A DNA stretch of 64,000 nt from Cinnamomum chago (taxonomy: Eukaryota > Streptophyta > Magnoliopsida > Laurales > Lauraceae): assembly GCA_038049695.1 (NCBI GenBank), contig CP142451.1, positions 70,262,001 through 70,326,000 of the forward strand, in the 5' to 3' direction. A program made the translations under genes and the position numbers. Below the pieces are notes generated by a model that had not been told where the DNA came from, did not search any database, and worked only from the letters and a program-made list of their open reading frames with translations. This document shows positions 881-46,787 of this stretch, in pieces. The first letter of the stretch is position 1, and the number at the start of each line of letters is the position of its first letter.

Positions 881-1015
881 GGCCGGTCGACCGGCCCAAA
901 AGTCCCTGTCGACCGGGAACACTACAGGCAGAAATGGCCCTGAAGCACCAACGGTCAAAAATATGACCGTTGTGTGATCCCGGTCGACCGAGACCTGTTT
1001 CCAGGTCGACCGGGG
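881..1015. repeat. Two pairs of GGTCGACC palindromic words inside the Copia LTR
   Basis: Four copies of a self-complementary word built on GGTCGACC are centred at 888/889, 910/911, 985/986 and 1007/1008. They form two pairs, each with a centre-to-centre distance of exactly 22 bp. A separate inverted pair, ACGGTCAAAAATATGACCGT, lies between them at about 951-970. Confidence 0.85.
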
Positions 1016-1671
1016 ACTAGCCGTTGGACTGTTTTCTTGTATAAAGTCCATTCATTTCCCATCCTTTTTTAGGCTTGAACCATGAACTTTTGAGACCATT
1101 TTGGAGCCAAAGAAAGGGGAAGAAGTTGGAAAGGCTAGAGGGCTATTTGGAAATCAAATGCTTGAGTTTTAAAAAGGTACATCTTACTTATCATTTTGAT
1201 TTCCATTAAAATTAGAATCAATGCATGGTTAAATCTTTGTATTTTCTTTTATGCATGATTTCTAGTTTTTAAAGAGTTGTTTTGCAAACTCATTACCATC
1301 TTTGGAATACTAAGAATGGTTTGCAAACTCTCTTGACTAATTCACATGCTCTTAGATTTTAATATTCATACAACTTGTTTAGTTCATTTCTTCAAAGTTG
1401 TTTGAATCTTTTATGTGATTAGTTTTCTCTTCAATCATCATTTTATAAGCTTTGATTTTAAAATGCATCATGCATTCATTTAAGAGCTTCATTGTTGAAA
1501 TTGATTGAAGAAAAGCATTCATACACTTGTGCACAGACTTTAGCTCATTTAGTGTATGTTTGTAATTTGAATTACACTTTCATATTAGCCTATGTAGAGG
1601 CAATTCAACTGTGCTTAAATTGTATCTCTTGAAGTGTTCTTTTGTGAAGACACCTTCTTAGAGAAATCATT

Positions 1672-1848
1672 CTTTTGTAAAGGTTATTGCTTAGCCTAAG
1701 AAAAGCATCTTGTAAAGGTTATTGCTTAGCCTAAGAAAAGCATTTTGTAAAGGTTATTGCTTAGCCTAGAAAAGCACATTGAGAGGTTGTTGTTTAGCCT
1801 AGAAAAACAACATTGTAAGGATTATTGCTTAGCCTAGTAAAAAGCATA
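1672..1848. repeat. Five tandem units of about 33-36 bp in the Copia LTR
   Basis: The unit core GGTTATTGCTTAGCCTA recurs five times with drift; the last two units are the most diverged. It ends just upstream of the conserved LTR stretch near 1885. Confidence 0.85.
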
Positions 1849-2390
1849 AATAGTAGAAATCCGGTGGGGTGATTGGATCACAAACCGGTAGTGGACGTAG
1901 GCATTGAGGCCGAACCACTATAAACCTTTGTGTTGTGGTGTATGCTTGTTGTGATTCATTTTTTAGCTTCCGCATCTTGTTTGATTAATATTATCACATG
2001 TGACTAGTTTATGTTAAGAAATTAAAATTGGTCTAAATTGGTCATAGTTGTAGCACACCCTATTCACCCCCCTCCCCTCTAGGGTTAGGATCCCCAGGAC
2101 TTTCAGGTTAAAGCTTTTCCGTGACAAGCAAAAAAAAATTTTGTCACCTTCGTGTGCATTCCGTGTCAACATTGATTTTTTGTCACCAAAGGGTGTCACC
2201 AATGGTGTTTTTTGTTGTAGTGTCTCCGGAGGTTCAAACTACATGGGCCCATTACCAGGCCTGTCTTCCAATCCTTGAGGAACCTCTTCGGTCTCTTCCT
2301 CTCCCTGCTGGGCCTCCTCAAGTTGGGGAGCTGCACCTTCATCTGTGACACCAAAGATAGTATCTTAAATACAACTATTTAGCAAGTATA

Positions 2391-4572
2391 TGTTAGAAAA
2401 GGGCAGTTGCTAGGAACTATAGATGAATATGATTAAAAATCATACCTACGAGATCTCTTTGATTTGATCTCGGTCTTACAGCAACCCGAAAATCTCAAGA
2501 TATTCTACTGTATTCCTCTATGCTTGAACTCGCACCAGGGTGTGGGCCTCTTCTACGAATTCTTTTTGCTCTCCAAAACGAGATTTCTCTTGTTCTTTTT
2601 ACCTAGAGAGCAATAGCGCATATTTATAGGCTATAATAGGGATCTTAAGAAGGAAATAAGGATAGACTTCTCATGGAAACATGAAACCCTAATTCAACCC
2701 AAATTAGAATCCTAGCTCCATAAATTACAATTTAGTCCACTAAAGAATTATAATTGCACTTATGTCCTTATTCTCAAAATAATATTTCGAGCTTCTTGTT
2801 ATTAAATGCTTATTAATCTCCCCACATTAAGATTTCAGATATCCATCAATTAAATAATTACTGACATCTATATTCAATCGATATCTTTATAATTTCTTGA
2901 GACCTTATACTTAACTTATTTGATATGTCGGACACAAAGTCCACCTGCAGGGTTTGACATAATCAAAACTTAAAAGCTTCATCAAGGGGATATCATCATT
3001 CCCTATTACGGGACGTGGATTCCGTCAATAAACTAATATACACCATACACGTAGTGTAGTCATCCAATTTATTGAGATTATTGACCCATAAAAGATCTCA
3101 CTCATTCATAAATCAAAATGCCAAACACTAAATGTATGTATCTATTATTTATGTCGGGATTAAGAGAACAAGCACTCATAATAACCATTTGGATGTTAAT
3201 CATCTTATATAGTCACTATAATGACAATAAACCCAAAAACGGTCATGTTCAATATACACAAAGCGTACTAGCATAATGAGTCGAAACTATACCATTTCCC
3301 GCAGCCAAGACAAGCCTGCTGAAAATTATGCTACAATCGTACCGATGGTGTGTGCAAATCCATCTAGATTGTGAACAACAACTTATATTCTATAAGAACC
3401 GACAAATAATTCTTTCGTGTATAAGTAGAACTCTACACACCAACTTGTCTACTTTATAGAATAAAAGACACACACATGCATAATAATTAATAATGCAACC
3501 ATTTGCCCATACAAAATCTCAATTAGATGAGAAGACAAAATATACTAATAAGTGAATCAGTCAAAGACAAATACATAAAAATATGTTTTTAGTATAAATT
3601 CCCAACAATCTCCCACTTAGACTCAAAACCATGCTGACATGTATTTCAACCCCATGCCTTCCACGTGACTATCAAAGCTCTTTGTAAAAGGATCTGCCAG
3701 ATTGTCCGCCGATGCAATCTTGGTCACGATTATGTCACCCCTCTGTACGATTTCTCGTATGAGATGATAATTACGCTAGATGTGCTTACCCTTCTTATGC
3801 ATCCTAGGTTCCTTTGCATTAGCAACCGCACTGGTATTATCACAATACATTATTATAGGTAATTTTACCGAATGTACCACTTCTAGATCCATCAAGAAGT
3901 TTCTAAGCCAAACTGCCTCCTTGAAGCAGCCACATATTCGGCTTCCATGGGAGAGTTAGTGATTGCTTGACACTCCTCCAACTTATAGCTCCACCTCCCA
4001 AGGTAAATACAAATCATAAGTTTGACTTTTTGGCATCATTATCGGACTGGAAGTCCGAGTCTGTGTACCCAATGGGTATCAAACTCTCGACTTGGTAAAT
4101 CAGCATATAATTTCTAGTCCTCTTGAGGTACTTAAGTATATGCTTTACCGCAGTCCAATGTTCTCTCCCTGGATTAGACTGGTATCTGCTAACCATGCCA
4201 ACGGCTAAACAAATATTAGGTATAGTACATAGCATTGCATACATGAGGCTTCCACCGCCGAAGCATAAGGTACTTCCTTCATTTTTTCTATCTCATCAGG
4301 TGTCACAACACCAAAAACAGGAAATTGGAACGGAAAAGCGTTCCCAATCCTTGCGTTCCTAATCCGTTAAACCGTTCCAAAAAAAGGAAATTGGAACGCT
4401 TTAACGGATTAGGAACGGTTGGTACCAAATTGGAACGGAAATTGGAACGCTTTTGGAACGGTTTAACGGATTAGGAACGGAAGGATTAGGAACGCTTTTC
4501 CGTTCCAATTTCCTGTTTTTGGTGTTGTGTGTCTTAGGACACTGATCATTGGATAAAGTAATTCCATGCCTG
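2391..4572 (-). mobile_element. Copia-type fragment: one LTR plus the end of pol
   Basis: On the minus strand the LTR spans 3607 to 2391 (starts TGTTGGGAATTTATAC, ends TTTTCTAACA, 1217 bp) and is preceded by the polypurine tract AAGTGGGAGAT. The stretch at 3620-4572 is the tail of a Copia polymerase. The usual reverse transcriptase/RNase H landmark words are recognisable there, including QCPKT, CTIPNICLAVGMVSRY and DSDFQSD. The rest of the element is absent. The fragment is broken and old, and carries a 224-bp foldback element. Confidence 0.85.
4305..4528. mobile_element. 224-bp foldback MITE, TSD GTGTC
   Basis: Both ends begin ACAACACCAAAAACAGG and continue as long near-perfect inverted arms (GAAATTGGAACGGAAAAGCG). 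The interior repeats the words GGAACG, GGATTAGGAACG and TTAACGGAT in both directions. GTGTC flanks it at 4300-4304 and 4529-4533. I cannot place it in a superfamily: a 5-bp duplication is unusual for hAT, Mutator or Harbinger elements. Confidence 0.85.
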
Positions 4573-4705
4573 AAAGATGCCAAAATTAAGTAAAACTAGG
4601 CAATTTGTGCAAATCGAATAATTTATGCTTTACGAATCAAATGGAGAATTAACATACAAATCTGGCAACTACATTGAGCTCATCCTCTCTATAGAGAGCA
4701 AATCC

Positions 4706-5723
4706 ATGGTTTAAAATCACAGTATCGGTTGTGGTATCGGCCGGGACAAAAATCGATATGATATTGGTATCGGTTGCGGTTATCACTCCGTCGCGGTCGT
4801 AGCGGTGTGAATATTTTTTTAATCCAAAAAAATCACAAAAATATCCAAAAAATCCAGAATATTAGAAAATATTGGAAATTTTTTTTTTTTTCATTAGTAA
4901 CAACAATAAATCAAAATATCGGTCACTTTAAGTTATGAGTCATGTCTATGCCGCACTTCGCTGTCTTCTTCAATATTTCATATAATACAACTATTATTTT
5001 GACTCATGGTCAATTTATTAGTGTAAAATATAAGAAAATAAAGATAACATAATAATTATCTATGCACTATTAATAAGCTATTAGTATTTACTATTTAGTA
5101 TGATAAATACTCCATTTTTTTAAAAAAAGGTAGAAGATTTATAATAAAAAAACCATTTTTCTACACCCAAAATCATGTTCATAAGTAGATCTAGCATGAA
5201 AGTGTATAGATTTAAGTGAAGAACACAACACAAACCCAAAAATGACATGCCAATGATCTTTTCATTCATTTCTATACTTTATCTAAAAATAAAAAATAAA
5301 AACACATAATAGTAAAAATAAGGGAGTTAAGTTGATTTTGTCTTACTAAATAAAATGATTTCTTCAAAAAATAGTGTTGGAATTTGGAAATATGTAAGAG
5401 AATGAGCTATGGAGACATGGTTGCTCTAAGGAGATGAGGGGAGAGGAGAAGAAAATGGAAAAATAGGGAAAAAGTTACAAAAAATTAGGGTTTTTTACCA
5501 TTACTCCATCTCGGCCGATATTTTCACTCAGCTGATATTTTTAAAATATCGGTTGAGATATCTGTAATATCGGTCGAAATATCGGTTAAACTAATATTTT
5601 GACCATATTGGCCTAGATTGGCCGATATTTTGGGGATATTTTGCCTGACTCGGTATCGCAGCAAAATATCATCCCGGTATGGGCCGATACCGGTTCATAT
5701 CGGCAGCCGAGATTTTAAACCAT
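4706..5723. mobile_element. Mutator-like nonautonomous element, 1018 bp, 9-bp TSD
   Basis: The ends are the inverted repeat ATGGTTTAAAATC / GATTTTAAACCAT, and the subterminal zones are full of TATCGG and CCGATA words. GAGCAAATC is duplicated at 4696-4704 and 5724-5732. The related LTR at 42815 has only one copy of GAGCAAATC, so the empty site is visible in the window. The 9-bp duplication fits a MULE. The interior is AT-rich and has no transposase. Confidence 0.87.
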
Positions 5724-6529
5724 GAGCAAATCTAATTGGGATGTCACCAGCGTCCCGGCCAAAGGCTGACTGGCTACCCGGGTTTAGAGTTCTAGTACTC
5801 CAAAATGACTTACTGCAGTAGTCTCAATTAATAAACAAAGTATAACCTGGTCGGGTAGCACAGGGTCTAAGCTAAGTAGTGCTGACTCAATCGAATCAAA
5901 TGATAATAGAATGTGAATAAATTCCATATCATATAATTTCATAACATCATCGAATCGAATCAAATAGTAATTGTTCACATTCATATTATTTCAAGCAATC
6001 CACTTCAAATATAGTAATCGAATTAGAAGTACACCAATATATAATGCATTGATAAACCACTTGAAGTCAATGATAATAATCCACTCAATATGAAGTGCAA
6101 GGGGGATTTAAGGAATCAAGGTAATTACTGACCAACTCTAATCTATTCATTTAGAGAATCTCACCGTCCATTTCAAGGTAGTTTTAGAAGGTCAATGTAT
6201 TACTATCATGTATTTGGTGCCACGAATTGTAAGAAAATACTTTGAATTCCTAAACCAACCCCCATAGCATAGTTTAAGACCAATGAGTAAAATCTATGAG
6301 TGTTCTCAGCCTCTATGAACATTCATAGAGTTATAATTTCCATTTAGATAAATGAAGAGGTTAAGTGTTCCATTCTAAAGTTATAAAGGTCCATTTTGAA
6401 TCTTAATCACCTATTGGTTTAGGTTGTGCCACAAAATTCTCTTTAGGGAGGATTATGGAGGGTTAATATAAGTTAGGGTAAGGTAATACACCTTCTATTT
6501 GGGTCAAAAGACCCCAGCCATACATTCCA

Positions 6530-6655
6530 GGTTCGCTCAAGCGAATGCAAGTTCGCTCGAGTGAACGTCTTCCAAAGAGGTGTGGTTGCTCGAGCATACC
6601 CCTTGGTCGCTTGAGTGAGTGCCATCCAGAAAGCGAACCCTTGTTCACTCAAGCG
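6530..6655. repeat. Paired TCGCTCGAGCGA-type palindromes in the chromovirus 3' LTR
   Basis: Word centres are at 6538/6539 and 6558/6559 (20 bp apart) and at 6591/6592 and 6612/6613 (21 bp apart), with a further degenerate word at about 6645. This is the same layout as 43625-43742 in the partner LTR. Confidence 0.85.
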
Positions 6656-7758
6656 CCCACTTCAGAGTTTCAAAATTCAGGAATTTCACCCATTCTTCTC
6701 CCATTACAACTACAGTGCATAAACATGTACAAGAGTGAAGTTCATAGCATTTCTACTCCATCTAATAGTACCCATTCATCACATTCTCCTAATTCCTACT
6801 CTTATTACCATCATTATAGCCATTACCCATATAAACTCACCAAAGACTACAAAATTAGGCTGAAAGTCACTAATTCAGAATATGAATAACAGAATCAATC
6901 TTAAGAAAACAACATGCATTTCATATTAAAGCTTATACTTGCCTCAATCAAAGCTTTTCCAACCTCTAGCTCTATTAATAGCTCAAATGAGCTAAAATCC
7001 CCAATAAAAAACCCTAAGCAAGGAAACCCATAAAAAAGATGCTAATGAATATGCATGCATGATTAATTAGGAGTCGCTTGACCCCTTTTTAACTCAAAAC
7101 ATGAATATCAAGGTTTGGGTTCTTACCTATAATAAGAAATTCGAAAATGGAAGTTGTAGGGAATGATTCCTTGTCAACAATGGTAAGGCAGTGAAGAGGA
7201 AATGATGAAGAGACCCAATCTTGCTTTCAATTTCACATGCAATGAATCCTTTAGCCAAATGGAGAAGAAAGAAGAGATAATGGAAAAGAAAAACAAGAGG
7301 AAGAAATGCTCCTCTCTCTCAGACACATAAATCGTTCGACTGAAATGCATTGGGCTGAGTTTTAAGTGAAAGAGGTGTCCATTTTACAAAATAGTTCCTC
7401 TAATGTTAGATATTTACATAACGAGTCAAATGGTGGCCCACTAATTCAACAGATGATCAAATGAAGTAAAAATCTATATGAAAATCGGCGTGTTCGATGA
7501 GATACACGCGATGACGCCAAGATGATGTGCATTTGAGGTAAAATGAGCAAATCCTAATTTACATAAAAATCCTTGACTCTACTCAATCGAGCCAAATCGA
7601 GGTAAAACTACCTACCCAAGACTCAAGGTCTAACCCAAAGGCTAAAACAAGACTAATTAATCGTAAAATAACTTCATTAGACACCAAGTATAGTTAATTA
7701 AAAAAGCACAATTAATTAGTGTTAAACACCTTTAATTTGGGTTGGGTTGGCCGTAACA

Positions 7759-8206
7759 TTTCACCCCCTCTTAGGAATCATTCGGTCCTCCGAATGAACA
7801 TACATGAGCGAATAGTTCGGGATAGTGTCGTGCAACTTGCTCCTCGAGCTCCCACATGGCTTCCTCTGGTCCATGATGATCCCAAAGTAGTTTAACCCAA
7901 GGAATAGACCTTGTCCGCAACACTTGTTCCTTCTCATCAATGATATGGAGCGGACGCTCAACGTATGTTGAGTCGGGTTTGATCTGAACTTCATCGTATT
8001 GAATGACATGAGATGGATCGCGAGCGTGCTCACAAAGCATCGAAACATGGAAGACATCATGTACACCCACGAATTCTGAAGGAAGCTTGAGTCTGTAAGC
8101 TACATCGCCAATTCGGCTCTTGATTTCAAATGGTCCCACAAATCTAGGTGAAAGCTTTCCCTTTTGCCCGAACCAAATCCTGCCCTTCATCGGAGATGTC
8201 TTCAAG
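7759..8206 (-). mobile_element. Chromovirus integrase C-terminal and chromodomain region plus polypurine tract
   Basis: On the minus strand, about 145 codons (8205 to 7771) read as the end of a chromovirus integrase: a GPF/Y-type patch (RFVGPFEIKSRIGDVAYRL), then VHDVFHVSMLC, then a chromodomain-like tail (WVKLLWDHHGPEEAMWELEE). The purine-rich AAGAGGGGGTGAAA directly precedes the LTR at 7758. It belongs to the same element as 38330-44830. The element is broken. Confidence 0.85.
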
Positions 8207-8211
8207 AATAC

Positions 8212-8380
8212 CCTGTAATTTTTCTATAGACATGAGTATTGGCAATCCGAATATCAGACAGACCAGAAACTTAGTGTAAAGCCCAGGATCTCTAGTTGTT
8301 GAAATAGAATTGCCATATGCATGCACTTTTCTTCTTTCACATTTACACTATATCACACCATATTTTCTTTTCCGTTTACA
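8212..8380 (+). repeat. 5' LTR piece of element C
   Basis: It matches the end of the right-hand LTR, including AACTTAGTGTAAAGCCC/AGCTTAGTGTAAAGCCC and the shared stretch through CACTTTTCTTCTTTCAC to TTTCCGTTTACA. It looks 5'-incomplete compared with the right copy. Confidence 0.75.
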
Positions 8381-8386
8381 TATTTT

Positions 8387-8404
8387 TGGCGACTCCATTA
8401 GGGA
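8387..8404 (+). other. Primer binding site of element C
   Basis: TGGCGACTCCATTAGGGA follows the LTR end after a 6-bp spacer. TGGCGACTCC-type sites occur in Tat/Ogre elements, where I recall tRNA-Arg as the proposed primer. Confidence 0.6.
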
Positions 8405-8479
8405 TCCGGGGCTACAATTGTTAGCTAGCTCTAACACCACAGAGAAATTAGAGAGGATGAGTGTGATGAATCACCCTTT

Positions 8480-10760
8480 TCATAGGCATGATAGATAGTC
8501 GCATACCTTTAACGGCTCCCGATACCAAGCGACGGCTCGACCGATGCCCTTTGGCACCCAGGAAATTACGCCAGCCTCCAAGGGGACGTCGGCCGAGGTA
8601 TCGCAAGGGAAGGGATCAGCCGTCTGCAAAAAAAACTGATCCTAGTCATTCCCACTATCAAATGATACTTCGTCTAAGTGACTCCCTTAGGGTGAGAGCC
8701 TTGGTTGTCAGGGAGACCTCGGCCGAAGTATCACACGAGAAGGGACCACGGAGCAGGCGAGGATGCTTAAAGGCAACTGAAGATCCGTTAACCACAGCTA
8801 GAAAAGCGCCAGCACCGGCTCAAGACGCATTTACCACGACGCAAACCGTGGTGCGTGCAGTTGCAAGCGAGCAAATGCATGAACATGGTCGCGAGTCATA
8901 GGAAGCTGACTCGGACCGTCGGGAAAGCATCGACAAAGAACCTGATAGCCTGGGTTAGGATTGGAAAAGGGTTCCTAGGGTTCAACCTAAACGAAACCCT
9001 GATCGACACGGAATTAATCGGTTCACCTCAAACCTACGGGATAGGTGGGATTCAAGTGGAACCATTACCACAAGAGGTTCCAGAAGGATAACCGGTGGAG
9101 AAAAAGACACAATCACTAAGGAGGGTAGTTTCGTACAAGGACCAGGATGGTTGGACTAACACCGACCTAGAGACAAAACCACCGACGTCGAAGAAACAAA
9201 TGGCGAAGCCCGATTGACCTACAGAGGGAGGAAGTTTCGGGAGAACCACACTACCGAAACAAAATAGTAAAGAAAAAATGTCAAGTCGGGAATTCCTTGC
9301 AAGAAGCCTAGATAAAATCCTTGATATTTTAGACAAGGTGTAGTCATTCAGCATCTGATGGCCGAGGTAGACGGGAAAGACAGTCTCAAAAGCAGCCCAG
9401 GGAGGTACTAACAAGAGAAGCCTCTCCACTACCATCTACAAAGGCAAGATAATTAAATAGATAACTTAATGGCAATGCTAATGGAACTAAAAGAGAAATT
9501 GGAAAATGTTGCGAAGAAAAAGAATCTGGAGAAGGAGTCTGCTGGATCTGACGAAGGCCCCGCCAAGGAAAGGGTTTTAGAGCAAAAGCAGTGGCATCAA
9601 AAGCAGATTTAGCCCTTCTTTACTCAACAATCAAAGAATTTGAAGGCAAAAGCAGTGGCATCAAAAGCAGATTTGCAGGCGGAGGTACATAGGATTATGG
9701 CAGAAGTGGGTGGGTACCACCCCGTAAAGGGAAAACCTTACCCAGAATGGATGGAGAACGTACAGTTCCCCAAAAAGTATAGGAGGCCTGACATACCGAC
9801 CTTTGACGGGTCCGGACCAGCGATACGACATCTCTGGCACTTCTCTATGAGAACCGGAGGGTTGCTCGAAAATGACTCCTAACGGATAATGTTGTTCGCC
9901 AACACGCTAGTGGGTAATGCATTTAGATGGTTTGAAAGCCTCCCCGAGTGATCAATCCAGTCGTTTTAAGACCTCCAGGCAATCTTCACAATTCAATTCC
10001 AGGCTGAAACCCCACCTGTAACATCCAAGGTGCTGCTAGAAACACATAAGGAGAAAGATGAATCAGTCGAGGCATACCTCAACCGATGGACGAACCTTTC
10101 CATGCAGTGCCGAGAAATCAATCATAAGACGGTATTTGACATCTATGTGCGGAACCTGAGAGCCGAGTTCTAGAAATATTTCACAACTGTGAAACCCATC
10201 TCATTCACACAGATATCTGAAGTAGCCGCAAATGCAGAAGTGGTGATCAAAAGGGAGAAACAGGAAGTTGAACCCAGGAGGTTTTCGTTCCGAACCCCAG
10301 TGGCTCCTCCAAGCAAAAGGAAAGACTCCCTGACGATGGTGTCTCCCAGCACGAGAAAAGAAAGAAAGACAACCTTCAACAAGAGAGAGCAACCAGTGGA
10401 AGAAGGGGGACAAGCACCAGCCGATCCCGGAAATACGACTTTGATGATCAAGAGATTGAAGGAATCTATGAAAAGCTTTTGAATGAAGGAAAGATCCAGC
10501 CCCTCACACCTAAAAGACTAGAGGAGGTAGGACGAGTCCATGACCCTAAGTATTACAGATACCAACAGATTGTGGGCCACCCCACCAACGCCTGCGGCAC
10601 CCTGAGGAATTCCATTCAAGATCTGGCTGATAGTCGGGTCCTCACATTCAAAGAAGGAGGATTCCCACATGCTGTAAATGTCGTCTACCTTACCAAAGAC
10701 GTAATCAGTGCTAGGATCGCTCACCACATGGCAGCCATGAACTGAGAAATGCCACAGTCC
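8480..10760 (+). mobile_element. Element C gag region
   Basis: The recognisable gag core is near 9740-10160: PDIPTFDGSGPAIRHLWHF, then a stretch resembling the retrotransposon gag family (aromatic WF and SL words, NRWTNL-like helix). Upstream of it is a long charged leader. The region is broken and only the family can be supported. Confidence 0.65.
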
Positions 10761-13700: not shown

Positions 13701-13705
13701 ATAAA

Positions 13706-13994: not shown

Positions 13995-14019
13995 GTAAAT
14001 GCCGGATCTGGGAACTTAG

Positions 14020-15594: not shown

Positions 15595-16914
15595 TGTAAG
15601 ACCCCGACCCGAGAGAACTCGATTAGTACTAATTAAGTCGTGTGTTAGTTCTAAGCTTGATTAGTGATTTTGGCTAAGTTGGGTTTGGAATAGCTTTTGA
15701 AATAGTTTTTAGGGAATTTCGATTGTCTTGTGTTAGTGAGACCCTTTGGGGGTTCCTTTTTATGACCATGCATGCGCTTGAGGATTTATCGGAGATTTTG
15801 CATTCATTGTTTTAATCTCATCTTATTAGTATTGTTAATCCTTACAACTTTTATGTTGATCCCGTCCCCGTTCGAGATCCCGAAACCCGATTTCATAGCC
15901 TTGAGGGCAAAACAGTCATTGTGCACAAAATCTGTACTCAAAACTTGATATTCCCAAAACCCGTGAAACATATACTTTTTGGAAACTAGATATTCCAACG
16001 ATCACTTTTCTCTTCTTCGTCGAATTCATTAGAAGCCCCGAGAGCCATGAATCCAGCCCAATTAGATTTCTAGTGGTGGAGCCCACTCCCCATTTGTGTA
16101 TAAGGAAACCCTTTTCCCTTCCATTTCCTTTTTCCAGCACAAGAGAGTGGATCTAGGGTTTTCCATTGCCTTCTTCTTGCTCTTGCTTTCCATCACCAAA
16201 CTCACCACCAACCTTGCACAAATTGAGAGGAGGAGATCATCACCTTCTTCATCATCACCATAGCTCTCTATTGGTACCATTGCTAGAGAAAACCCTCCAT
16301 TACAAGACTCCTTTTGAGCTCACCTTGTCCATTAGAGGACCTTGCAAGTAAGTAACCCTTCTCTTCTTCTAGAATTGTGTTCTCCTAGCTTAAGGGAATC
16401 TCCATCTTTGTTATTGAAGCTTCTTTCTTCCTATTCTATGTTTTGACTCTTTAGGGTTTTATTTTCGGATTTTCCTTGTAGCTTGGACCTTTGATTTAAA
16501 GGACTTGTTAGAGCTTGATTTGCTTACTAGAGACCAAGGCAAGTGGATGAATGATTTTTCCTAAGCTTTCATTGACTTTGGATATTTTCCATTAATGCAT
16601 AGTTATTGCTTTGTTTTGAAATGAATGCTCATGATAGGGTATTAATGGTACATTTATGGTCCAAGAGATGTGTTGGTTCATAGCATTTAATTCCTCTTGT
16701 TTTGTCTCAAATACATATCTTATGTGAAATGGTTTCCTTCTTTATTTCCTTGTGATTGGATGTGATATGGATGGAGGAGAATGGGATGGATGTGGTGAAA
16801 GATTTGATGTTATTTGAATGGAGTTTTAAACTCCTCATCTGATGTATAAAAGTGGCTAAAAAGGGGTTGTAGAAGGAAGAGATAGAGAGGAGCTGAACTG
16901 GTCCGGAATCAGTT

Positions 16915-17200
16915 TCTGGACAGTTCGCTCGAGCGAACATGACACTTCGCTCCAGCGACCTGTCCAGAGAAGGGTTCGGAGCATTCCAGTAGCTTGGTCG
17001 CACGAGCGTACCCTTTGTCGCTCAAGCGGACATCCCAAAACCTGTTCCAGAGAGTTGTTCGTTCAAACGCACTAAAAACTCCGCTCGACCCAATGAGTTC
17101 GCTTGAGCGACCTCAACTTCGCTCGAGCGAACCCACCCAGGCAACCATTCCAGAGAGCTCCTCGCTCGAGCGAACTCTCCGGTTCTCTCGAGCGATGAGG
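16915..17200. repeat. Five pairs of TCGCTCGAGCGA-type palindromes in solo LTR 1
   Basis: Ten self-complementary words form five pairs. Centres are 16930/16952, 17003/17023, 17064/17086, 17104/17124 and 17167/17189, giving spacings of 22, 20, 22, 20 and 22 bp. A CCAGAGAG-like spacer precedes most pairs. Confidence 0.88.
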
Positions 17201-18051
17201 GTTGTCTGTCATGGGCTATGTTTGGGACCACGTCTAACTATTTCAACGTATTGGGACTATTCTTTGGGAACCCCTCTATGTAAAGGAAATTTTCTAAGCA
17301 ATGTATGAAGCCATTCGTGAAAGAAACCATATCACAAAGATGTCATTTGAGGTTTTGAAAATTCGGAGTGTCACTACAAAAAAAATGTCTTAATGAGTCA
17401 CTTTTAAAGTGTCTTAAAAAGTGGTTTGTATCGCTTTTCTGGTTACTATGCAAGCGTCTTATCTGCCGGCGTCACTAAAAGTTCGCAAAAGCGTCTCAAG
17501 AAATGCATTTGTTGTGTCAGTTTCTGTTACCAAAGTGACACAAAAAAATGGTTACTTGTGTCACTTTAAACCCAAAAGTGACACTGAAATAACTTAGAAG
17601 CGTCACAAGAAAGATAACTTCTGTCATCAGTTGTGACAGTTTCCATTGAAGCGAGATACAATCAACATCTGTAGCAATGATCAATATGTTGTTTTCGGAA
17701 CAAAAGTGACACAAGTAGTCATCTGTTGTGACACTTTCCATAGAAGCGAGATACCATCCTTTTTTTTTTTAAATAAAAATGCAATATATACATTACTAAT
17801 AACATGCTGCAGTATGGATACACTTTCAAATCACTAAACCTGCCTTACAAAAGATGCAAAAAGATATAGATAGCAACATTCAATAAGAACCATTTCATTA
17901 ATTGAAAATTAATCACCATTCACATTAAGGAACGTGCTTGCTCGTCCACGCACTAAATCAAACAAACTATTCAAAACATAGCCAATTTGAATCCATCCAT
18001 AATCCAAACTATTTACATTAACCTTCGAATTCGTAACGAAAGCACGTGGTT

Positions 18052-27944: not shown

Positions 27945-27986
27945 AAGCGTTCCCAGAAAGCTAATGCCTGCGGCCTTCTGACTCCG

Positions 27987-30900
27987 TGTGAGAACCCGAC
28001 CCCTAATCTCTTGGATTAGTGTTGTTTTATTTGTGGATTAGTTCTTTTAGTGGGATTAGTAGTTGTTGGGTTGAGTTTGTGAGCTAGAATGAGTTTTCTT
28101 CTAGTTTTGGGCTTTTTAGTGCTTTGGTAGCTTGTGGGGCCCTTTGGGGGTTCCCTTTTCGGCTTTGCTTTTCTTGTGAGATTTTCCCGATTGGTTTCGT
28201 ATCGTGTTTTTGGCCCGTTGCATTCATCTTGAGGAATCCTACAACTTTCATGTTGATCTCGTATCCATTTGAGAACCCGAAAACCGATTTCTTGGCCTTG
28301 AGGGCAAAACAGTCTTTTCACACCAAATCTGTACCCAAAACTCGATATTCTCGAAATCCGTGAAACATACACTTTTTGGAAACTAGATATTTCGACGATC
28401 GTTTCTTCCTTCTTCGTCGAATCCATCCGAGGTCCCGAATTAGATGATTTCAGCCACCCAAGTTCTTTAAGTTGTGGGACCCATTCTCACTTGTTTATAA
28501 AAGGAACCCATCTCCTTCATTGCTCATTCTTCACCATTGTTCCAGCACAACCATGGAGTCTAGGGTTTTCCTTGCTCCCTCTTCTTCTTCTTGCTTCTTC
28601 ATCTCCAAGCCACACAAATCTTGCACCAAACTAGAAATGGAGATCACCATTCTCTTCTCCACCTTGCAAGCTTTTCATGGATGCCATTAGAAGAGAAATC
28701 CACCAACATTGAGACCTTCCTTGAGCTTGTTCTTCTCATTTGAAAGTCATCCAAGTAAGTTCCCTCCTCAAATCTTCTAGATATGTGTTCTTCTTGCCCT
28801 TGAGAAGCTCCATTTTCATTATTGGGAGTTCTTTCTTCTTCTTCATTGTTTAACCCATTTTAGGGTTGTTTTGGGGGTTTTTGTAGAGATTGTGGATCTT
28901 GAGCTTGAGAGGTGATTAGGAGCTTGATTTGCTTGATTAGAGTCAAAGGCAAGTGGATGGATGGATTGTTTTGCTTATTAACATGTTTTGTGATAAAAAT
29001 CTTGATTTCATTGATGGTTTTGGTAATTGTAATAGTTGTTTTTGATATGATAAATATTGATTATGAGATGTGCTTATTGATGAGTTATTCTTTCTTGTTA
29101 AGCTCTTGAAAGTGCATGCATCCTATTGTCAAGAATTTCAAATGGTTTCACATGAATGAGTTTTCTCCACTTTGAGTTTTATTGTGGATGGAATGGATGG
29201 ATAGGATGGAAATGGAGGAACTTGGAATGAGGAGCTCTTTAGCTCATTTTAATGTCTTGGAAACATGTGATTAAGTCCCCTTGTTTATAGTTTTATGTGA
29301 TTGATTATATGTTGGAAGGAAAGGAAAGAAAAAGAGAAAAATCAGAGTTCCCGGACCTGCACTGCGCCCAGGTCCGATCGATCGGACGTTCAGGCCGATC
29401 GATCGGACTGACTTTTAACAGTAAGCATTTTTCAGCCGATCGATCGACCGATCGATCGGACCCTGTGCAGAAATTTTGGGTGGTGAATTTTGAGATTTTT
29501 AATTTTCTTGGTTTTAGGTGGGACCTTGGCTACCCTTTTTGGACTGATTGGACTATGTGTGAGATGTCTTGAGCCGACACTCCTCAAGGTTGATTCGGTT
29601 GCATCGAAGTCCAATCAATTTCAATCTTGAACGGGATGGAACGACGCGATATCTTCCTAATATCTAAACACAAGTCTTTTTCCTTGGTTATCGCAAATTC
29701 TATCCCTTTCGATGACTGAATAGGTCGGTCGATGTTTCCAAATTAACGTCATGCCTAGGATGGACCGTCTATAGTCTTGATTTTTCTATTATAACATCTA
29801 GTACTACCCATGAGCTCATTTTAAGTGTTGAAAATCGTAAAAGTGCATAAGGAGCCCGGAATGTCCTCAAACTCAAGGAGTACCAAGTAATGATTAAAAT
29901 CGACATACGGGACCCCTATTCACTTAAATAGATCTTGAAACTAATATTCTACCCGGAATTTGTTATAGTTCATTGTCTCACCTCATTTCCCAGATTGCAT
30001 CATATGACTCGTTTTCCCGAAAGCATTGAAGTTACTCTAGTAACAGTTAATTGTCCCGAAAGGTATTGCCCGATATGAAATGATAGTGTGCCCTTGAGCA
30101 CCCCCGTTTTACCCGTTTATGCCCGATATGAATGTTAGTGTGCCCTTGAGCACCCCCGTTTTACCCGTTTATTTACTGTACTTGATTACTTGCATATGTC
30201 TCGATTGGTTTTAACCTATGAGTCGGCATCACTAAGCTTGGATACCTTGTCAGTCTGATCCACTGACTTGGAGATCCCTCTCCCGTCCCGCCAGCTGCAG
30301 TTTGGATCCCGATACCCGGTTATTGCCGTGGTCCCGTCCCGATACCCGGTTCGCTACCGTGGTCCCGTTCCCGTTCCCGTGTATTTATTATTGTATATAT
30401 GATTTACGTTGAGTCTCCTCACCTTGTGTGACTGAGACCAACGTCCCGCTCTTGTCACTTCGGTGATAGAGGACTTAGCTTCTTGTGATTGCCATCTTGC
30501 CAGTTCCCGATTCCTTGGACACCCGATATGGTTTATATTGCTTACTTGTTTTCAGTTAAATGATTCATTGCTTTTATGAAAGTTGTTATTTAGATAAGTG
30601 TTAATGCTCTCTATTGTAAATCCAGTCACTATTATATTGTTTTATGTCCTTTGCACACGTACATGTTTTACAGGAATGCCGGTTGGGCGAATACCCGTGC
30701 TTTTACATATGTTTCAAACGATAAATGATTTTGCTAGACTTATATGATTTCACATGTTTTAAAGGAATACCCGAATTGTTAAATATCCGTACTTTGTTTT
30801 AAATGACATTTGACTTGTGAGATTCCCATGTTTATACATGCTTTAAATGATTACCCGATTTCTAAATATCCATGCTTTGAAATATGTTTCAGATGACATT

Positions 30901-31930: not shown

Positions 31931-31935
31931 CTCCG

Positions 31936-37398: not shown

Positions 37399-37403
37399 TG
37401 AAC

Positions 37404-38317: not shown

Positions 38318-38322
38318 AATAC

Positions 38323-41300
38323 ATCTAGATACATATTTTGAAATTTCTCTCTTCATATTATTCCACCAAAACCTGCCTTGAAGATTTTGATACATTTTGG
38401 TGCTTCTTGGATGCATTGCATATCTTGCATAATGGGCCTATGTTAAAATAGCTAATACCGTATTTCTTATAGTCGGAACACCCAACTTGTCCTTGAAATA
38501 AAGAATCCCCTCTTCCAACCATAAGTCTGGTTTATCTGCAATATTATCTAGAATCTTGGCCAATTTTGGGTCAGTAAACTGTTGTTCCTTGATCTGCTAA
38601 ATCAGGGTTGGTTGAAAAAATGACATTGCTACAAGTGCCACTTTGTCACCAATTAGCTTCATTGTCACATCCAAATCCTTGAACTCTTCAAATACAAACC
38701 ATTTGTCATTTATGGGTGTTAGGTTAAACGATTTTCTGCTCAAAGCATCTGCCACTACATTACCCTTTCCTGGTATGTACTTAATAGGAAAATCATAGTC
38801 CTTGATATATTCTAACCATCTTCGTTGTCTCATGTTAATGTCCTGCTGCGAGAATAAGTATTGAAGACTGCGATGATTTGAATATACTTCAAATTGCTCC
38901 TCATAAAGATAATGTCTCTATAACTTTAGAGCAAAAACAATGGCTGCCAATTCAAGATCATGTGTGGCATAATTTTTCTCGTGTCCTTTCAACTGTCGAG
39001 ACCCATAAGCAATCACCTTGCCATGCTGCATACGTACACACCCCAAACCAACTCTAAATGCATCATAATAAATTACAAAACCTCCACTACCTTCAGGTAA
39101 GGATAATATTGGGGCTGTTGTCAATTTCTTCTTTAGGGTATGAAAACTAGCTTCATATTCATCAGTCCATACGAAAGGAACATTCTTCCGAGTCAACCTT
39201 GCCATTGGAGCTGAGATCTTTGAAAAATCCTTGACAAATATGCGGTAATATCTAGCAAGACCTGGAAAACTTCGAATCTATGCAACTGTTTTAGGGCTTT
39301 TCCAATTGGTGACCAATTCTACCTTCGCATGACCAACTGCCAAACCCTCACTAGTAATAATGTGTCCCAAGAATGCCACTTGTTCCAGCCAAAAGTCACA
39401 TTTCTCAAGTTTGGTATACAACTGATGAATCCTCAAGAGCTGAAGTGACGTCCTTAAATGTTCTGCATGGTCTTCCTTAGACTTTGAATACATCAAGATG
39501 TCATCAATAAAGATCTCAATAAATTGATCCAGATATGGAGCAAAGATCCTATTCATTAATGCCATAAACACGGCTGGTGCATTAGTTAAACCAAATGGCA
39601 TTACAAGGAATTCATAGTGGCCATACCTTGTTCTAAAGGCTGTCTTTTCAATATCTTGCTCACACACTCTCAACTGGTGTTACCCGGATTTGAGATCTAT
39701 CTTCAAAAAGTAAGCTGCCCCTTGGAGTTGATTAAATAACTCATCAATACGAGGCAATGGATACTTATTCTTTATTGTTACCTGATTGATTTGCCTGTAA
39801 TCTATACACATCCGAAGAGTGTCATCTTTCTTTCGCACAAAAAGTACTGGATCTCCCCACAGTGAAATACTAGGATGTATAAATCCTTTATCTAACAAGT
39901 CTTGTAATTGCTCCTTCAATTCTCTGAGTTCTGCAGGAGCCATTCTATATAGTGCTTTGGGTATTGGAGCAATACCCGGCGCTAGGTCAATGGGAAAATC
40001 TACCTCCCTAGATGGGGGTAATCCTGGAACTTCATCCGGAAATACATCTGGATATTTACACACCACCAGAATTTCTCCTAACATCTTGGGTGGTTTCTTC
40101 TTGGTAATAAATGCCAAGTAACTTCCACAGCCCTTCTCAAGAAGCTTCGTAGCGTCCAATGTTGTAACTAGTCCAATGTTGGACTTCTCCCTCCGAACAC
40201 CCTCGAATATCACATTCGATTTGGGTTCCTCTACCTTGAAGTTAATAGTCATGTGGAAACAATCCACACAAGCTCTATACTCTGCAAGCCAATCCATTCC
40301 AAGGATGACGTCAAAGTCATGCATCGCCAGAACTATCAAGCCTGCTAGCATTAGCAATCCTCCGATTGGAACACTACACTTAGGGTAGTAATTCTCGCAA
40401 GCCACTCTTTTGCCACTGGTGTAGTCACCATCAGCATAAAAGGTAGCAACTCAGGTTGTTGCTCAAGTTCACAAGCAAAACGAGGTACCACAAATTAATG
40501 TGTAGATCCCAAATCAAATAAGGTCTTAGCATTTTTAGTACATATCAAAATACTACCTTCCACAACATTCCCAGCTGCGTCTGCTCGCTCATGATCCATT
40601 ACATAGATTCTTCCTGCTTGTTGTGGTCGTTGTTTAGCCTGTTGACGCTACTATCCTTACCTTCCTTGCTGTTGTTGTTGTCTCACAGGTGGTGCTGGTA
40701 GTGCCAAACGCCGTGGTGGAGCCGGTAGTGCTCGTCTACTTTGCCAAGGAAGAGGTTGTTAAGGTGCCCTGTTACCATCTCTATCTCTAGGACATGTAGC
40801 TGCATGATGCTCCATTGATCCACAAAGAACACATGCCCCTGTATTCCTCTAACACCTCTCAATCAGGTGCCCCTTTCCACAAGTGTCACATTTTGGTGCA
40901 CCAATAACCACACCCTTCTGTTTCTTATGTTGTTGCCCTTTTCCAGAGTAAGATGGATTTCTCTTAAAGTTGTTGGCATCTTTCCTCAAGGCTACTTTTT
41001 CTGCGAAGAAGTCTCAATCTATAGCATCATCAAATGTTTCTGGCCTCTTGAAAGCCATTACATGCTCCACATAGGCTGGGTTCATGCCATCAATAAATTT
41101 GTCCACCTTCTTCTCTTCAGTTATCAAGTCTTCAACATACTTAGATAATTGCATAAAGGTGTGTACATAATCCATCATGGTCATTTGATTCTGCTGCAAG
41201 GTCAGGAATTCATTCCGTTTCTTCCTTCGCACATGATCGGTTATGAACTTTCTGCGGAATTGTTTCTTGAATGTCTCCCATATGGTGGCATTAGGCAATA

Positions 41301-41706
41301 ACTTGAAAGAATTCCTCACACTTTTCCACCATGTATTGGTTGTGTCTCGAAACATCGAAGCGGTAAGTACAACCCTGTGTTTATTGTCACATATGACAGT
41401 TTCAAAAACATCACCAATGTGATCTAGCCATTCATCTGCTTTTACAGCACCCTCATTCCCATAAAATTCTGTAGCTCCCCTATTTCGAAACTTGTCATAC
41501 AAAGTGTTAGGATCCTTGTCCTTGGATTGCAAGATTACTTGAGTTCCTGCATTTGGCTGTCCGGGACCTTGTCTTGCCATTAGCATAACTATATTTTTAT
41601 TTGCCTTAGACATTTGCTCCATGAGCATCATCATGCGAGCATCCATGTTAGGAGGATCATTTTCCACCACTACGAATGGATCAGTATTGTGAGAACCGGA
41701 CGCCAT
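38323..41706 (-). mobile_element. Chromovirus gag-pol body (minus strand)
   Basis: From right to left: gag (41706 to about 40790, with EWLDHIGDVFETVICDNKHR and TTNTWWKSVRNSFKLLP, then a CX2C zinc knuckle near 40880), protease (about 40560-40180, [14 protein letters not shown]), reverse transcriptase (about 40050-39300, [20 protein letters not shown] and [15 protein letters not shown]), RNase H (about 39205-38600, [41 protein letters not shown]) and the start of integrase (near 38350-38450, STKMYQ, WWNNMKRE). Element C meets it at about 38318. This order and the chromodomain at 7771-8206 identify a Tekay/Reina-type chromovirus. It is broken in several places. Confidence 0.85.
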
Positions 41707-41712
41707 TTATTT

Positions 41713-42008
41713 GTAAAAGAATTTTCAAGTTGAGTTAGAAGTAACACTCTACTTTAACACCCCCCCCCCCCCCAAATCAATACTAACACTAAACAAAGAC
41801 AATATCTCTATGTTCTTAATCAATTTTTAACGTATCATCACAACGAATCTAATGTATCCTCACAATACTAAACTAAGAATTTTCAAGTTGAGTTAGAAGT
41901 AACACCCTACTCTTAACACCCCCCCCCCCAATCAATACTAATGCTAAACTAAGACAATATCTCTATGTTCTTAATCAGTTTGTAACGTATCCTCACAACG
42001 AATCTAAT
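41713..42008 (-). repeat. Tandem duplication with poly-C tracts in the chromovirus leader
   Basis: About 150 bp is present twice (41713-41876 and 41877-42008). Each copy has GAGTTAGAAGTAACAC, a C run of 9-14, AATCAATACTAA and TCCTCACAACGAATCTAATG or a near match. It lies between the primer site and gag on the minus strand, where the runs read as poly-G. Confidence 0.8.
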
Positions 42009-42034
42009 GGTTTCTAAGTCTTTTAGAAAGACTT

Positions 42035-42050
42035 CCATGCTCTGATACCA
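42035..42050 (-). other. Chromovirus primer binding site
   Basis: On the minus strand it reads TGGTATCAGAGCATGG, the standard initiator tRNA-Met complement, starting 10 bp from the LTR end at 42061. It fixes the direction of the element. Confidence 0.9.
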
Positions 42051-42060
42051 TACTTACATA

Positions 42061-44830
42061 TGTCACATCTCGGTCCCGAATCACCCTGGCCTAGGGTAAT
42101 CCCTGAGGTGTGACACGCATACTCCTGTGATATGACACCCTTCTCGAGTCAAGTACGATATCACGATGGGGAAAGTCAACCTTCCACGTGTGAGTCTAGC
42201 TCACTAACACCTATCAACAACATTTGATAGCGAAAGCATTTTATAATAAAACACAAATAGGTACCATTTCATGAACAGTCCTATCATAAGTTTCATGTTT
42301 ATACAAAAGTTACTTACACATTGGAACCAAAGTGGGGATTATAAAAAATAAAAATAAAAAATCACCCCACCAACCTATATAGAATATAATCCAAAAGTAT
42401 CTATTTAGTGTGACCCACAAAAAAAGAAGTAATTGCACTTCTAATCTAGCTTTCAAAAGTTCCCCCTTCGCTCTTCGGAGGTCCAAACTACATGGGCCCA
42501 TTTCCAAGCCACTCTTCTAGTCCTGAAGGAACCTCTTCGGTCTCCTCCTCTCCCTCCTGGGTATCCTCAGGTTCGGGAGCTGCACCTTCGTCTCTGACAC
42601 CAAAGATAGTATCTTAAATGCAACTATTTAGCAAGTATAAGCATTAATATTGTAACACATGTTATATCAAATTCGAATTTAAAGACAATAGATCAAAGAT
42701 GCCAAAATTAAGTAAAACTAGGCAATTTGTGTAAATCGAATAATTTATGCTTTACGAATCAAATGGGGAATTAACATACAAGTCTGGCTACTACATTGAG
42801 CTCATCCTTTCTATAAAGAGCAAATCTAGTAGGGATGTCACCAGCGTCCCGGCCAAAGGCTGACCGGCTACCTGGGTTTGGAGTTCTGGTACTCCAAAAT
42901 GACTTACTGCAGTAGTCTCAATTAATAAACTAAGTATAACCCCGTTGGGTATCATAGGGTCCAAGCTAAATAGTGTCAACTCAATCGAATCAAATGATAA
43001 TAGAATGTGGATAAATTCCATATCATATAATTTCATAACATCATATCGAATTGAATCAAATAGTAATTGTTCACATTCATATTATTTCAAGGAATCCACT
43101 TTGAATATAGTTATCAAATTAGAAGTACACCAATATATAATGCATTGATAAACCATTTGAAGTCAATGATAATATTCCACTCAATATGAAGTGCAAGGGG
43201 AATTTAAGGAATCAAGGTAATTACTAACCAACTCTAATCCATTTATTCATAGTCTCTCACCGTCCATTTCAAGGTAGTTTTAGAAGGTCAATGTATTACT
43301 ATCATCTATTTGGTGCCATGAATTATAAGAAAATATATTGAATTCCCAAACCAACCCCCATGGCATAGTTTAAGACCAATGAGTAAAATCTACAAGTGTT
43401 CTCAGCCTCAATGAACATTCATAGATTTATAATTTCCATTTAGACAAATGAAGAGGTTAAGGGTTCAATTCTAAAGTCATAAAGGTCCATTTTGAATCTT
43501 AATCACCTACTGGTTTAGGGTGTGCCACAAAATTCTCTTTAGGGAGGATTATAGAGGGTTAATATAAGTTAGGGAAAGGTAAAAAACATTCTATTTGGGT
43601 CAAAAGACCCCAGCCATACATTTAAGGTCGCTTGAGCGGATGCAAGTTCGCTCGAGCTAACGTCTTCTAGAGAGGGGGTTGCTCGAGCAGACCCCTTGGT
43701 CGCTCGAGCGAGTGCCATCTAGAGAGGGGCTCGCTCAAGCGCCCACTCCAAAATTCCGGAATTTTCAGCTGTTCTTCTCCCATTACAACTACAGTGCATA
43801 AACATGTACAAGAGTGAAGTTCATAGCACTTCTACTCCATCATTAATAGTACCCATTCATCACATTCTCCTAATTCCAACTCTTATTACCATCATTATAG
43901 CCATTACCCATTCAACACCAAAGACTACAAAATTAGGCTGAAAATCACTAATTCAGAATATGAATAATGGAATCAATATTAAGAAAACAACATGCATTTC
44001 ATATTAAAGCTTATACTTGCATCAATCAAAGCTTTTCAACCTCTAGTTCTATTAATAGCTCTAATGAGCTAAACCCCCCAATAACAAACCCTAAGAAAGG
44101 AAAACCATGAAAAGATGCTAATGAATATGCATGCATGATTAATTAGGAGTCCCTTGACCCCTTTTTAACTCAAAACATGAATATCAAGGTTTGGGTTCTA
44201 ACCTATAACAAGAAATCTGAAAATATGGAAGTTGTAGGGAACTATTCATGTTAACAAAGGTATGGCAGTGAAGAGGAAGTGATGAAGAGACCCATTCTTG
44301 CTTTCAAGTTCACATGCAAAGAATCCCTAAGCCAAATGGAGAAGAAAGAAGAGAGAATGGAAAGGAAAACAAGAGGAAGAAATGCTCCTCTCTCTCAGAT
44401 ACAAAAATGGTTCGACTAAAATGAATTGGGTTGAGTTTTAAGTGAAAGAGGTGTCCATTTTATAAAAACAACCTCTAGTTTTAGATATTTTCATAATGAG
44501 TCAAATGGTGGCCCACTAATTCAATAGATGATCAAATGAAGGAAAGTTCTATATGAAAATCGACGTGTTCGATGAGATACACGCGATGATGTCAAGATGA
44601 CGTGCATATGAGGTAAAATGAGAAAATCCTAATTTACGTAAAAATCCTTGACTCTACTCAATCTAGCCAAATTGAGGTCAAACTACCTACCCAAGACTCA
44701 AGGTCTAACCCAAAGGCTAAAACAAGACTAATTAATCATAAAATAACTTAATTAGCCACTAAGTATACTTAATTAAATAAAACATGATTAATTAGTATGA
44801 AACACCATTAATTTGGGTTGGGGTGTAACA
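42061..44830 (-). mobile_element. 5' LTR of the chromovirus, 2770 bp
   Basis: On the minus strand it starts TGTTACACCCCAACCC (44830) and ends GGGACCGAGATGTGACA (42061). It aligns with the interrupted LTR at 2223-7758 and shows the empty sites for the CACTA, the Copia fragment and the Mutator-like MITE. The flank at 44831 reads ACTTG; the partner flank is outside the window. Confidence 0.9.
43625..43742. repeat. Paired TCGCTCGAGCGA-type palindromes in the chromovirus 5' LTR
   Basis: Word centres are 43633/43653 (20 bp) and 43684/43705 (21 bp), plus a single word at 43736. TCTAGAGAGGGG spacers separate the pairs, much like the CCAGAGAG spacers of solo LTR 1. Confidence 0.87.
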
Positions 44831-46740: not shown

Positions 46741-46742
46741 AT

Positions 46743-46760: not shown

Positions 46761-46787
46761 ACGATTGACATAATCTTCCCTATTACC

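Follow-up and report, generated by a model that had tools for sequence, protein, structure and literature searches.

Long terminal repeats (LTRs) of retrotransposons in Cinnamomum chago carry clusters of CpG-rich palindromic 12-bp words whose centres mostly lie whole turns of the DNA helix apart, and the same words occur in Copia and Ty3 LTRs. We describe these clusters from a 64,000-nucleotide stretch of contig C1 (C1:70,262,001-70,326,000, hereafter the window) and from counts over the whole assembly of 1,061,006,199 bases. We read them as dyad sites for a homodimeric protein, phased on B-DNA in promoter-proximal LTR arrays, and put the probability of this reading at about 0.55. The original prediction, made on the window, had proposed that fixed geometry combined with changing sequence reflects a constraint on form. 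This idea gained support from genome-wide spacing counts and from related LTRs that carry different words within the same interval of the LTR.

All palindromes named in that prediction are present in the window: GGCCGGTCGACCGGCC (centre 888), CGGTCGACCG (985) and GGTCGACC (1007) in a Copia cluster; GTTCGCTCGAGCGAAC (16930), TTCGCTCGAGCGAA (17124) and TCGCTCGAGCGA (17167) in a Ty3-type cluster; GTCCGATCGATCGGAC (29379) and CCGATCGATCGG (29400 and 29453); and TGCTCGAGCA (43684) and TCGCTCGAGCGA (43705) in an LTR that we call LTR2. Near-words with up to three mismatches extend these series, and gaps below are those between successive near-words:

881-1013, plus strand: Copia word cluster of CCGGTCGACCGG-type near-words, centres 888, 910, 985 and 1007; gaps 22/75/22.
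6532-6657, minus strand: decayed word cluster of LTR1 (CGCTCAAGCG, CGCTCGAGTG, TGCTCGAGCA and similar words); limits set by eye.
16923-17195, plus strand: Ty3-type word cluster of nine near-words of TCGCTCGAGCGA; gaps 22/51/20/63/18/20/43/22.
29372-29459, plus strand: Ty3-type word cluster of CCGATCGATCGG, centres 29379, 29400, 29441 (one mismatch) and 29453; gaps 21/41/12.
43628-43742, minus strand: LTR2 word cluster of five near-words of TCGCTCGAGCGA; gaps 20/31/21/31.

The predicted spacing of 20-22 bp is indeed common, but gaps of about 31, 41-43 and 50-52 bp are found likewise, and the LTR2 series corresponds to 2, 3, 2 and 3 turns. Gaps off this ruler were also seen (11-12, 17-19, 23-25, 33, 35, 45 and 63-75 bp). 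Near-words of TCGCTCGAGCGA hold 39 mismatches, of which 16 are CpG transitions and 26 affect one of the six CpG bases among the ten scored positions; this spectrum is too weak for us to claim decay by methylation.

The words reach far beyond the window. As the whole-genome control we used each word or pattern read backwards, which keeps base composition and leaves CpG content unmatched. Exact copies numbered 20,150 for TCGCTCGAGCGA (control 5), 15,936 for CCGATCGATCGG (control 24) and 2,589 for CCGGTTAACCGG (control 98). Family copies are related, and such counts measure abundance, not independent origins.

Spacing was counted over the whole genome as the half-word pair TCGANCG...CGNTCGA at chosen centre-to-centre distances; distances between these bins have no separate counts. 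Pairs at 20-22 bp dominated, with 40,850 (control 371), followed by 6,603 at 41-43 bp (control 305) and 1,579 at 30-32 bp (control 128). The remaining bins held 1,316 pairs at 15-17 bp (control 178), 998 at 25-27 bp (control 83), 651 at 46-48 bp (control 123) and 171 at 35-37 bp (control 141). The totals were 53,536 for 10-40 bp (control 2,386) and 29,980 for 24-54 bp (control 2,677). The pairs listed individually are the first genomic places, on C1, except that those at 35-37 bp span C1 to C3. With 10-40 bp allowed, 41 of the 50 pairs listed lay at 20-22 bp. With 24-54 bp allowed, the 50 listed comprised 10 at 29-31, 9 at 41-43 and 22 at 49-53 bp, a further 9 elsewhere (24-25, 37, 39 and 44-45 bp), and none at 26-28, 32-36 or 46-48 bp. 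Similarly, among 50 listed copies of CCGGTTAACCGG, the gaps of at most 40 bp were 20 (two), 22 (twelve), 31 (one) and 32 bp (five). At C1:58647089-58696215, a 46-48 bp pair recurs nine times among the matches listed, once every 6.13 kb or so, which resembles a head-to-tail arrangement of repeats.

The pairing also appears when no word is specified beforehand. We scanned the window and 18 stretches of 10 kb chosen by coordinate alone (244 kb) for any 12-mer with at least five of six dyad pairs and at least two CpG, against 20 local dinucleotide shuffles. This yielded 130 dyad words, where the shuffles averaged 47.3 and never exceeded 59; pairs 19-23 bp apart numbered 20, compared with a shuffle mean of 0.25 and a maximum of 1. 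Three of the 20 pairs are doubtful: one in L010 joins two different words, and two lie in L013, probably outside any LTR. The stretch L013:9515-9557 (CGGTTAACCG) looks like a different kind of repeat; it is counted in the 19-23 bp statistics and omitted from our family table.

Helical phase was assessed in 20 hand-chosen clusters (12 labelled Ty3, two of unknown superfamily) and in 12 representatives of them, using gaps of 26-75 bp; short gaps were set apart and gaps above 75 bp (77-83) fell outside the range. The 27 longer gaps gave R = 0.53 at 10.4 bp, a value reached by a fraction of 0.0003 of 20,000 jittered sets; with the best period taken from 9-12 bp, the fraction was 0.009 of 3,000 sets. 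For the representatives (15 gaps) it was 0.0055. The clusters are also rich in CpG, with observed/expected ratios of 0.89-1.71 in seven clusters and of at most 0.30 in 9 of their 14 500-bp flanks. By eye, several distinct spacers with CCGATCGATCGG and CCGGTCGACCGG words hold TGCAG or CTGCAGG midway between paired words, as if a third site stood one turn from each.

Related LTRs carry different words. The two plus-strand Ty3-type LTRs of the window are:

15595-17400, plus strand: left part of a Ty3-type LTR of the TCGCTCGAGCGA family, aligning to L018 (77.5%, 1600 bp), L001 and L017; right end not fixed.
16845-16850, plus strand: TATA-like site about 85 bp upstream of the first word.
27987-30670, plus strand: Ty3-type LTR of a related family (CCGATCGATCGG), whose sequence to either side of the words aligns to L007, L012, L017 and L001 (about 75-96%); ends approximate.

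The second belongs to what we call scaffold B (window 28.0-30.6 kb, L007, L012:1306-5419, L017:2962-6005, L001 and L010). Its words are CCGATCGATCGG in the window, L007 and L012, YCGGTCGACCGG in L017, TCGCTCGAGCGA in L001 (together with one CCGATCGATCGG) and GCGGCTAACCGC in L010. In L012, L007, L017, L001, L010 and L018, the left and right flanks of the words nevertheless match the window copy at 70-93%; win_C5 aligned on a single flank. The unaligned interval around the words in the window copy measures about 0.18 kb for L017 and 0.8-0.9 kb for L001, L010 and L018, and "the same place" is therefore exact only to that interval. We assign scaffold B to Ty3 because a Ty3 gag open reading frame (ORF) lies beyond the L017 LTR in the same orientation; the pattern for a primer-binding site (PBS) was not found at that LTR, which makes the assignment weaker than for L020. 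The LTR at 15595-17400 is likewise assigned to Ty3 indirectly, through the gag ORF beyond the related L017 LTR. L020 itself has an LTR at about 307-3143, a PBS match at 3144, gag, protease, reverse transcriptase (RT)-RNase H and an integrase zinc finger in that order, and a second LTR start at 9760 (97.9%); judged by this arrangement, it is Ty3.

Two side observations concern the Ty3-type LTRs. At L012:1298-5427, a scaffold-B LTR of about 4.1 kb is nested in an LTR of the L020 type, which represents another Ty3 family, with word clusters in both. At L018:1645-1760, a GCGCTCGAGCGC cluster has gaps of 20/52/20. With a PBS match at 938 on one side of it and the scaffold-aligning part on the other, it is off the place of the other clusters; its Ty3 label is an assumption.

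The Copia LTRs show the same pattern of word change. The window contributes:

366-2105, plus strand: Ty1/Copia LTR starting with TGTTAGGAATTTTG; right end approximate.
1040-1045, plus strand: TATAAA, 33 bp past the centre of the last Copia word.

This LTR aligns to LTR-type stretches in L017, L013, L008 and L012 at 76-86%, and to the L006 LTR in short segments at 71-76% identity. In L006, whose word is TCGGTCGACCGA, a PBS match at 6287 is followed by gag (PF14223), integrase and RVT_2 ORFs; by these domains L006 is a Copia element, and by alignment the window LTR falls in the same broad group. The words on this scaffold are CCGGTCGACCGG, CAGGTCGACCGG, CCGGTTAACCGG and TCGGTCGACCGA. For example, the window and L008 are 83% and 75% identical outside the words, and 72% over a short stretch covering the second word pair, yet they carry CCGGTCGACCGG and CCGGTTAACCGG, respectively. 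The window Copia LTR has no adjoining Sirevirus-type polypurine tract (PPT) and may be solo. A second inverted repeat, AACGGTC...GACCGTT, lies between the two Copia word pairs (window about 948-974, L012 about 9305-9332, L008 about 8820-8848, where it reads AACGGCT), and GCCGTTGG or a similar sequence stands upstream of TATA in Copia LTRs.

Words are shared between Copia and Ty3 LTRs, and CCGATCGATCGG-type words occur as well in the Sirevirus-type LTR of L024, 165 and 241 bp into the LTR after a Sirevirus PPT and attachment site. With the words masked, 37 of 40 Copia-Ty3 cluster comparisons had no spacer similarity above the shuffle maximum; the other three (L017a-L017b, L012c-L017b and L017a-win_B) exceeded all 60 spacer shuffles. 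The Copia stretch L017:165-335 and the Ty3-type stretch L017:4570-4800 have near-identical words, unusual gaps of 25/19/24-25 and spacer similarity above shuffles, and local exchange between these two LTRs is possible.

The clusters appear to lie on both sides of promoters, which we predicted by motif only. In four of six Copia LTRs (window, L006, L012 and L017) a predicted TATA box follows the last word after 32-35 bp, about three turns; in L008 and L013 the corresponding place lacks a TATA match. On the Ty3-type scaffold, five of eight segments have a TATA-like site 85-220 bp upstream of the first word. Were these predictions correct, the shared words would serve on either side of the promoter, and no role tied to a single RNA position could apply to both groups. 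The original prediction had offered kissing-loop sites for RNA dimerisation as one candidate; we disfavour it because, with the predicted TATA box, the Copia words in those four LTRs would fall outside the 5' leader; a place inside the leader is possible in Ty3.

Paired sites for a dimeric DNA-binding protein, another of its candidates, are the explanation that we favour, given that the longer gaps tend to B-DNA phase and that words occur on either side of the predicted promoter; binding itself is something that we infer. Each dyad-symmetric, CpG-rich 12-bp site would presumably be bound by a protein homodimer. Most sites are of the type YCGN-TCGA-NCGR, and others are CCGG-TTAA-CCGG and the near-palindromic GCGGCTAACCGC. 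With centres mostly whole B-DNA turns apart (two, and also about three, four and five), neighbouring dimers would sit on the same face, which could allow cooperative binding and action on the nearby promoter. The word would change, largely in concert within an LTR, when an element switches partner or escapes recognition, and the ruler would persist since it is set by the protein-DNA complex. For sites of the CGG...CCG kind we considered LOB-domain proteins, which presumably recognise such sequences; we do not name them as a candidate.

Several observations weigh against this reading. The genome counts rest on a limited number of families with non-independent copies, and the reversed control is not CpG-matched. 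The 1,316 and 998 pairs at 15-17 and 25-27 bp lie off the ruler; by eye, one 17-bp arrangement dominates the former and TCGA slips are frequent in the latter, among the matches listed. Phase is imperfect, as in the series 25/19/25 (Copia LTR) and 25/19/24 (Ty3-type LTR) of L017 and 18/33 of L020 and L012. A single LTR may hold differing versions of its word, and in L001 two words are mixed. No TATA[AT]A was found upstream of the words in three of the eight Ty3-type segments (window 29.4 kb, L007 and L012), and TATATA lies downstream of the words in L007, L012 and L018, whose words could stand before the promoter after all. Finally, two words 21 bp apart could also form a hairpin.

Such hairpins, in RNA or single-stranded DNA, would have two palindromes fold into 12-bp stems that feed small-RNA production, the words being kept for another reason or as a cost. 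This has been proposed for Sirevirus LTRs of maize; for the present clusters we consider it unlikely. Spacing of 20-22 bp leaves a loop of 8-10 nt, and a small-RNA excess is described on palindromic Sirevirus LTR clusters of maize in the available text of PMC10760457. Compared with 100 dinucleotide shuffles apiece, the predicted folds of eight clusters are much more stable (z from -5.6 to -9.05), but palindromes fold well anyway and these scores do not discriminate. An inverted repeat would suffice for a hairpin, its arms need not each be palindromic, and no preference for 30-32 and 41-43 bp over 35-37 and 46-48 bp is predicted. A-form RNA has 11 bp per turn, and the peaks at 31, 41-42 and 50-51 bp among the matches listed fit B-DNA better. 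Beyond the 12-mer, pairing at offset 7 was found between words in 24 of 52 cases and within a word in 29 of 52 (26 distinct pairs), which do not differ clearly.

The words might instead be targets of a sequence-specific anti-silencing or silencing factor, resembling the VANC proteins of VANDAL transposons and acting in trans across families, with words diverging fast as the recognition system changes; we hold this to be rather improbable. According to the available text of PMC5735166, VANC targets are short motifs in non-coding regions of transposable elements (TEs), often in tandem and differing between related TEs, and VANC6 motifs occur in an unrelated TE too. Here, similarly, words differ between related LTRs and are common to unrelated ones, and in both systems short motifs are multiplied in non-coding TE DNA and vary between relatives (PMC5735166 and PMC10398659, available text). 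By analogy, this logic would be the best precedent that we met for fast-changing motif arrays. VANDAL elements, however, are DNA transposons encoding their own binding protein, and the motifs printed in the available text, YAGTATTAY and AGTTGTCC, are non-palindromic and come with no helical ruler (PMC5735166). Pfam scans of 38 ORFs, from partial elements and with no search aimed at VANC, gave gag, protease, RT/RNase H, integrase, related pol domains, one hAT fragment, or nothing.

A neutral origin, with a short palindrome copied over and over by replication slippage or template switching as the element is reverse-transcribed, seems very improbable to us. The number of near-words varies from 2 to 9 among the 20 hand-chosen clusters, and a 23/11 motif is repeated three times in L010, as slippage would allow. 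From such duplication one would expect neither the same CpG-rich palindromes in both Copia and Ty3 nor half-turn depletion nor words far above reversed controls (20,150 against 5), and the genome-wide spacing counts already strain it. Slippage, the remaining candidate of the original prediction, may well help arrays expand, but alone it leaves unexplained the palindromy, the presence of the same words in two superfamilies, and the excess of 30-32 and 41-43 bp over 35-37 and 46-48 bp. A single ancestral repeat module spread between LTRs by recombination, with geometry reflecting shared ancestry, could account for the three masked-word comparisons above all shuffles and for the two words mixed in L001, yet it is hardly credible given the 37 comparisons without spacer similarity and a spacing that stays the same while words differ.

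The closest known relatives of these clusters are the repeated-motif (RM) boxes of Sirevirus LTRs, described as Sirevirus-specific in the available text of Bousios et al. 2010 (PMC2829016), where elements with RM boxes have at least eight motif copies in LTR and linker together, additional ones standing ahead of the envelope-like gene. There as here, a palindromic word is repeated within the LTR, although several of our clusters are smaller than eight copies, and CGGTCGACCG, the word given for Vitis (PMC2829016, available text), forms the core of the Copia word in the window. A place shortly upstream of TATA, as in RM boxes, is seen in four of our six Copia LTRs; in the Ty3-type segments a TATA-like site precedes the words in five of eight and follows them in L007, L012 and L018. 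The window's Copia cluster appears to be the same kind of thing as the RM boxes. Their CGG-CCG core is present in CCGGTCGACCGG, CCGGTTAACCGG, TCGGTCGACCGA and GCGGCTAACCGC, absent from TCGCTCGAGCGA, GCGCTCGAGCGC and CAGGTCGACCGG, and reversed in order in CCGATCGATCGG. The Sirevirus features (PPT AGGGGGAG and attachment site AT/TG) are both found in L024, whereas the Ty3 LTRs here are not carried by Sireviruses, as in L020, where Ty3 gag and RT precede integrase. Unlike RM boxes, words here occur also in Ty3-type LTRs, often downstream of a TATA-like site and mostly on a whole-turn ruler; the available text of PMC2829016 reports no helical spacing. The palindromic Sirevirus LTR clusters of maize share the strong predicted folding (PMC10760457, available text), while 12 of our 20 clusters are labelled Ty3. 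As far as open-access literature searches show, the helical ruler, the large numbers in Ty3 LTRs, the change of word on a conserved backbone and the words common to superfamilies are new. Neither helical phasing of such words nor their occurrence in Ty3 LTRs was found in that literature, and when the words were searched as literal text, the titles among the matches listed were unconnected with LTRs.

The structure of the window's elements also required revision. The four unrelated families of the original prediction reduce to three lineages, two of them Ty3 or Ty3-type. The members of its chromovirus LTR pair share only 72% identity across the 750 bp aligned in self-comparison and have different words, and we read them as LTRs of two related families; Pfam scans of 38 ORFs, some of which lie outside these elements, revealed no chromodomain. 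Its solo LTRs 1 and 2, taken as separate families, are one family at 90.7% identity. The relevant features are:

2223-7758, minus strand: LTR1, of the LTR2 family, with interruptions at about 2391-4572 and 4705-5723; a purine-rich tract precedes it.
7774-8223, minus strand: integrase C-terminal (SH3_Tf2-1) ORF directly before LTR1 (PF24626, 1.2e-22).
39680-40450, minus strand: Ty3 protease and start of RT after LTR2 (PF08284, 1.6e-15; RVT_1, 1.5e-05, under its curated cut-off).
41014-41706, minus strand: Ty3 gag ORF after LTR2 (PF03732, 2e-17; PF19259, 4.6e-11).
42039-42050, minus strand: PBS match TGGTATCAGAGC after LTR2, read from the sequence.
42061-44830, minus strand: LTR2, a Ty3 5' LTR (TGTTAC...GTGACA), boundaries by inspection, using the motif at its start and a PBS match that sets in 10 bases past the assumed end.

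The pattern used at 42050 is one that we take to mark a PBS. Because a PBS match, gag and protease follow LTR2, and a purine tract and an integrase end precede LTR1, the two are not shown to be solo: Ty3 parts flank both, on the minus strand. Lying 37 kb apart in the same orientation, they may represent both ends of one Ty3 element that nested insertions, tens of kilobases in all, have pushed apart. The words, placed 1.3-1.4 kb from the start of both LTRs in the original prediction, lie closer in LTR2, about 1.09-1.2 kb from its minus-strand start.

A further Ty3 element occupies 46086-56581 of the window, with long gag-pol ORFs (46701-51134 and 51089-52627), a 57-bp tandem array (52704-52988) and repeats at 46086-46740 and 55926-56581 that are 97.9% identical; the window's palindrome-pair listing has no CpG palindrome pair at 19-23 bp in these repeats. 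In the assembly, contigs C13 (707,525 bases) and C14 (152,753 bases) look mitochondrial and plastid, beside 12 large contigs.

These arrays bear on how the proteins of a plant cell find LTR retrotransposons to read or silence them. Paired sites that keep a ruler while their word can switch exist in the tens of thousands, and they can serve directly as baits in tests. One LTR backbone occurs with four or more different words, and Copia and Ty3 have words in common; natural LTRs thereby allow word to be told apart from family, and spacing from sequence, with no need for engineered variants. A bolder proposal, which we offer tentatively and would not bet on, is that one dimeric host protein family reads the same two-or-three-turn ruler across LTRs of unrelated superfamilies, its members preferring different CpG palindromes, and that LTR lineages exchange one word for another at the same site, thereby recruiting a paralogue or evading it. 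If this genome-wide recognition code were true, the words would preserve, like fossils, an arms race in which DNA-binding proteins of plants and LTRs oppose each other, with a logic comparable to that of animal zinc-finger proteins against endogenous retroviruses.

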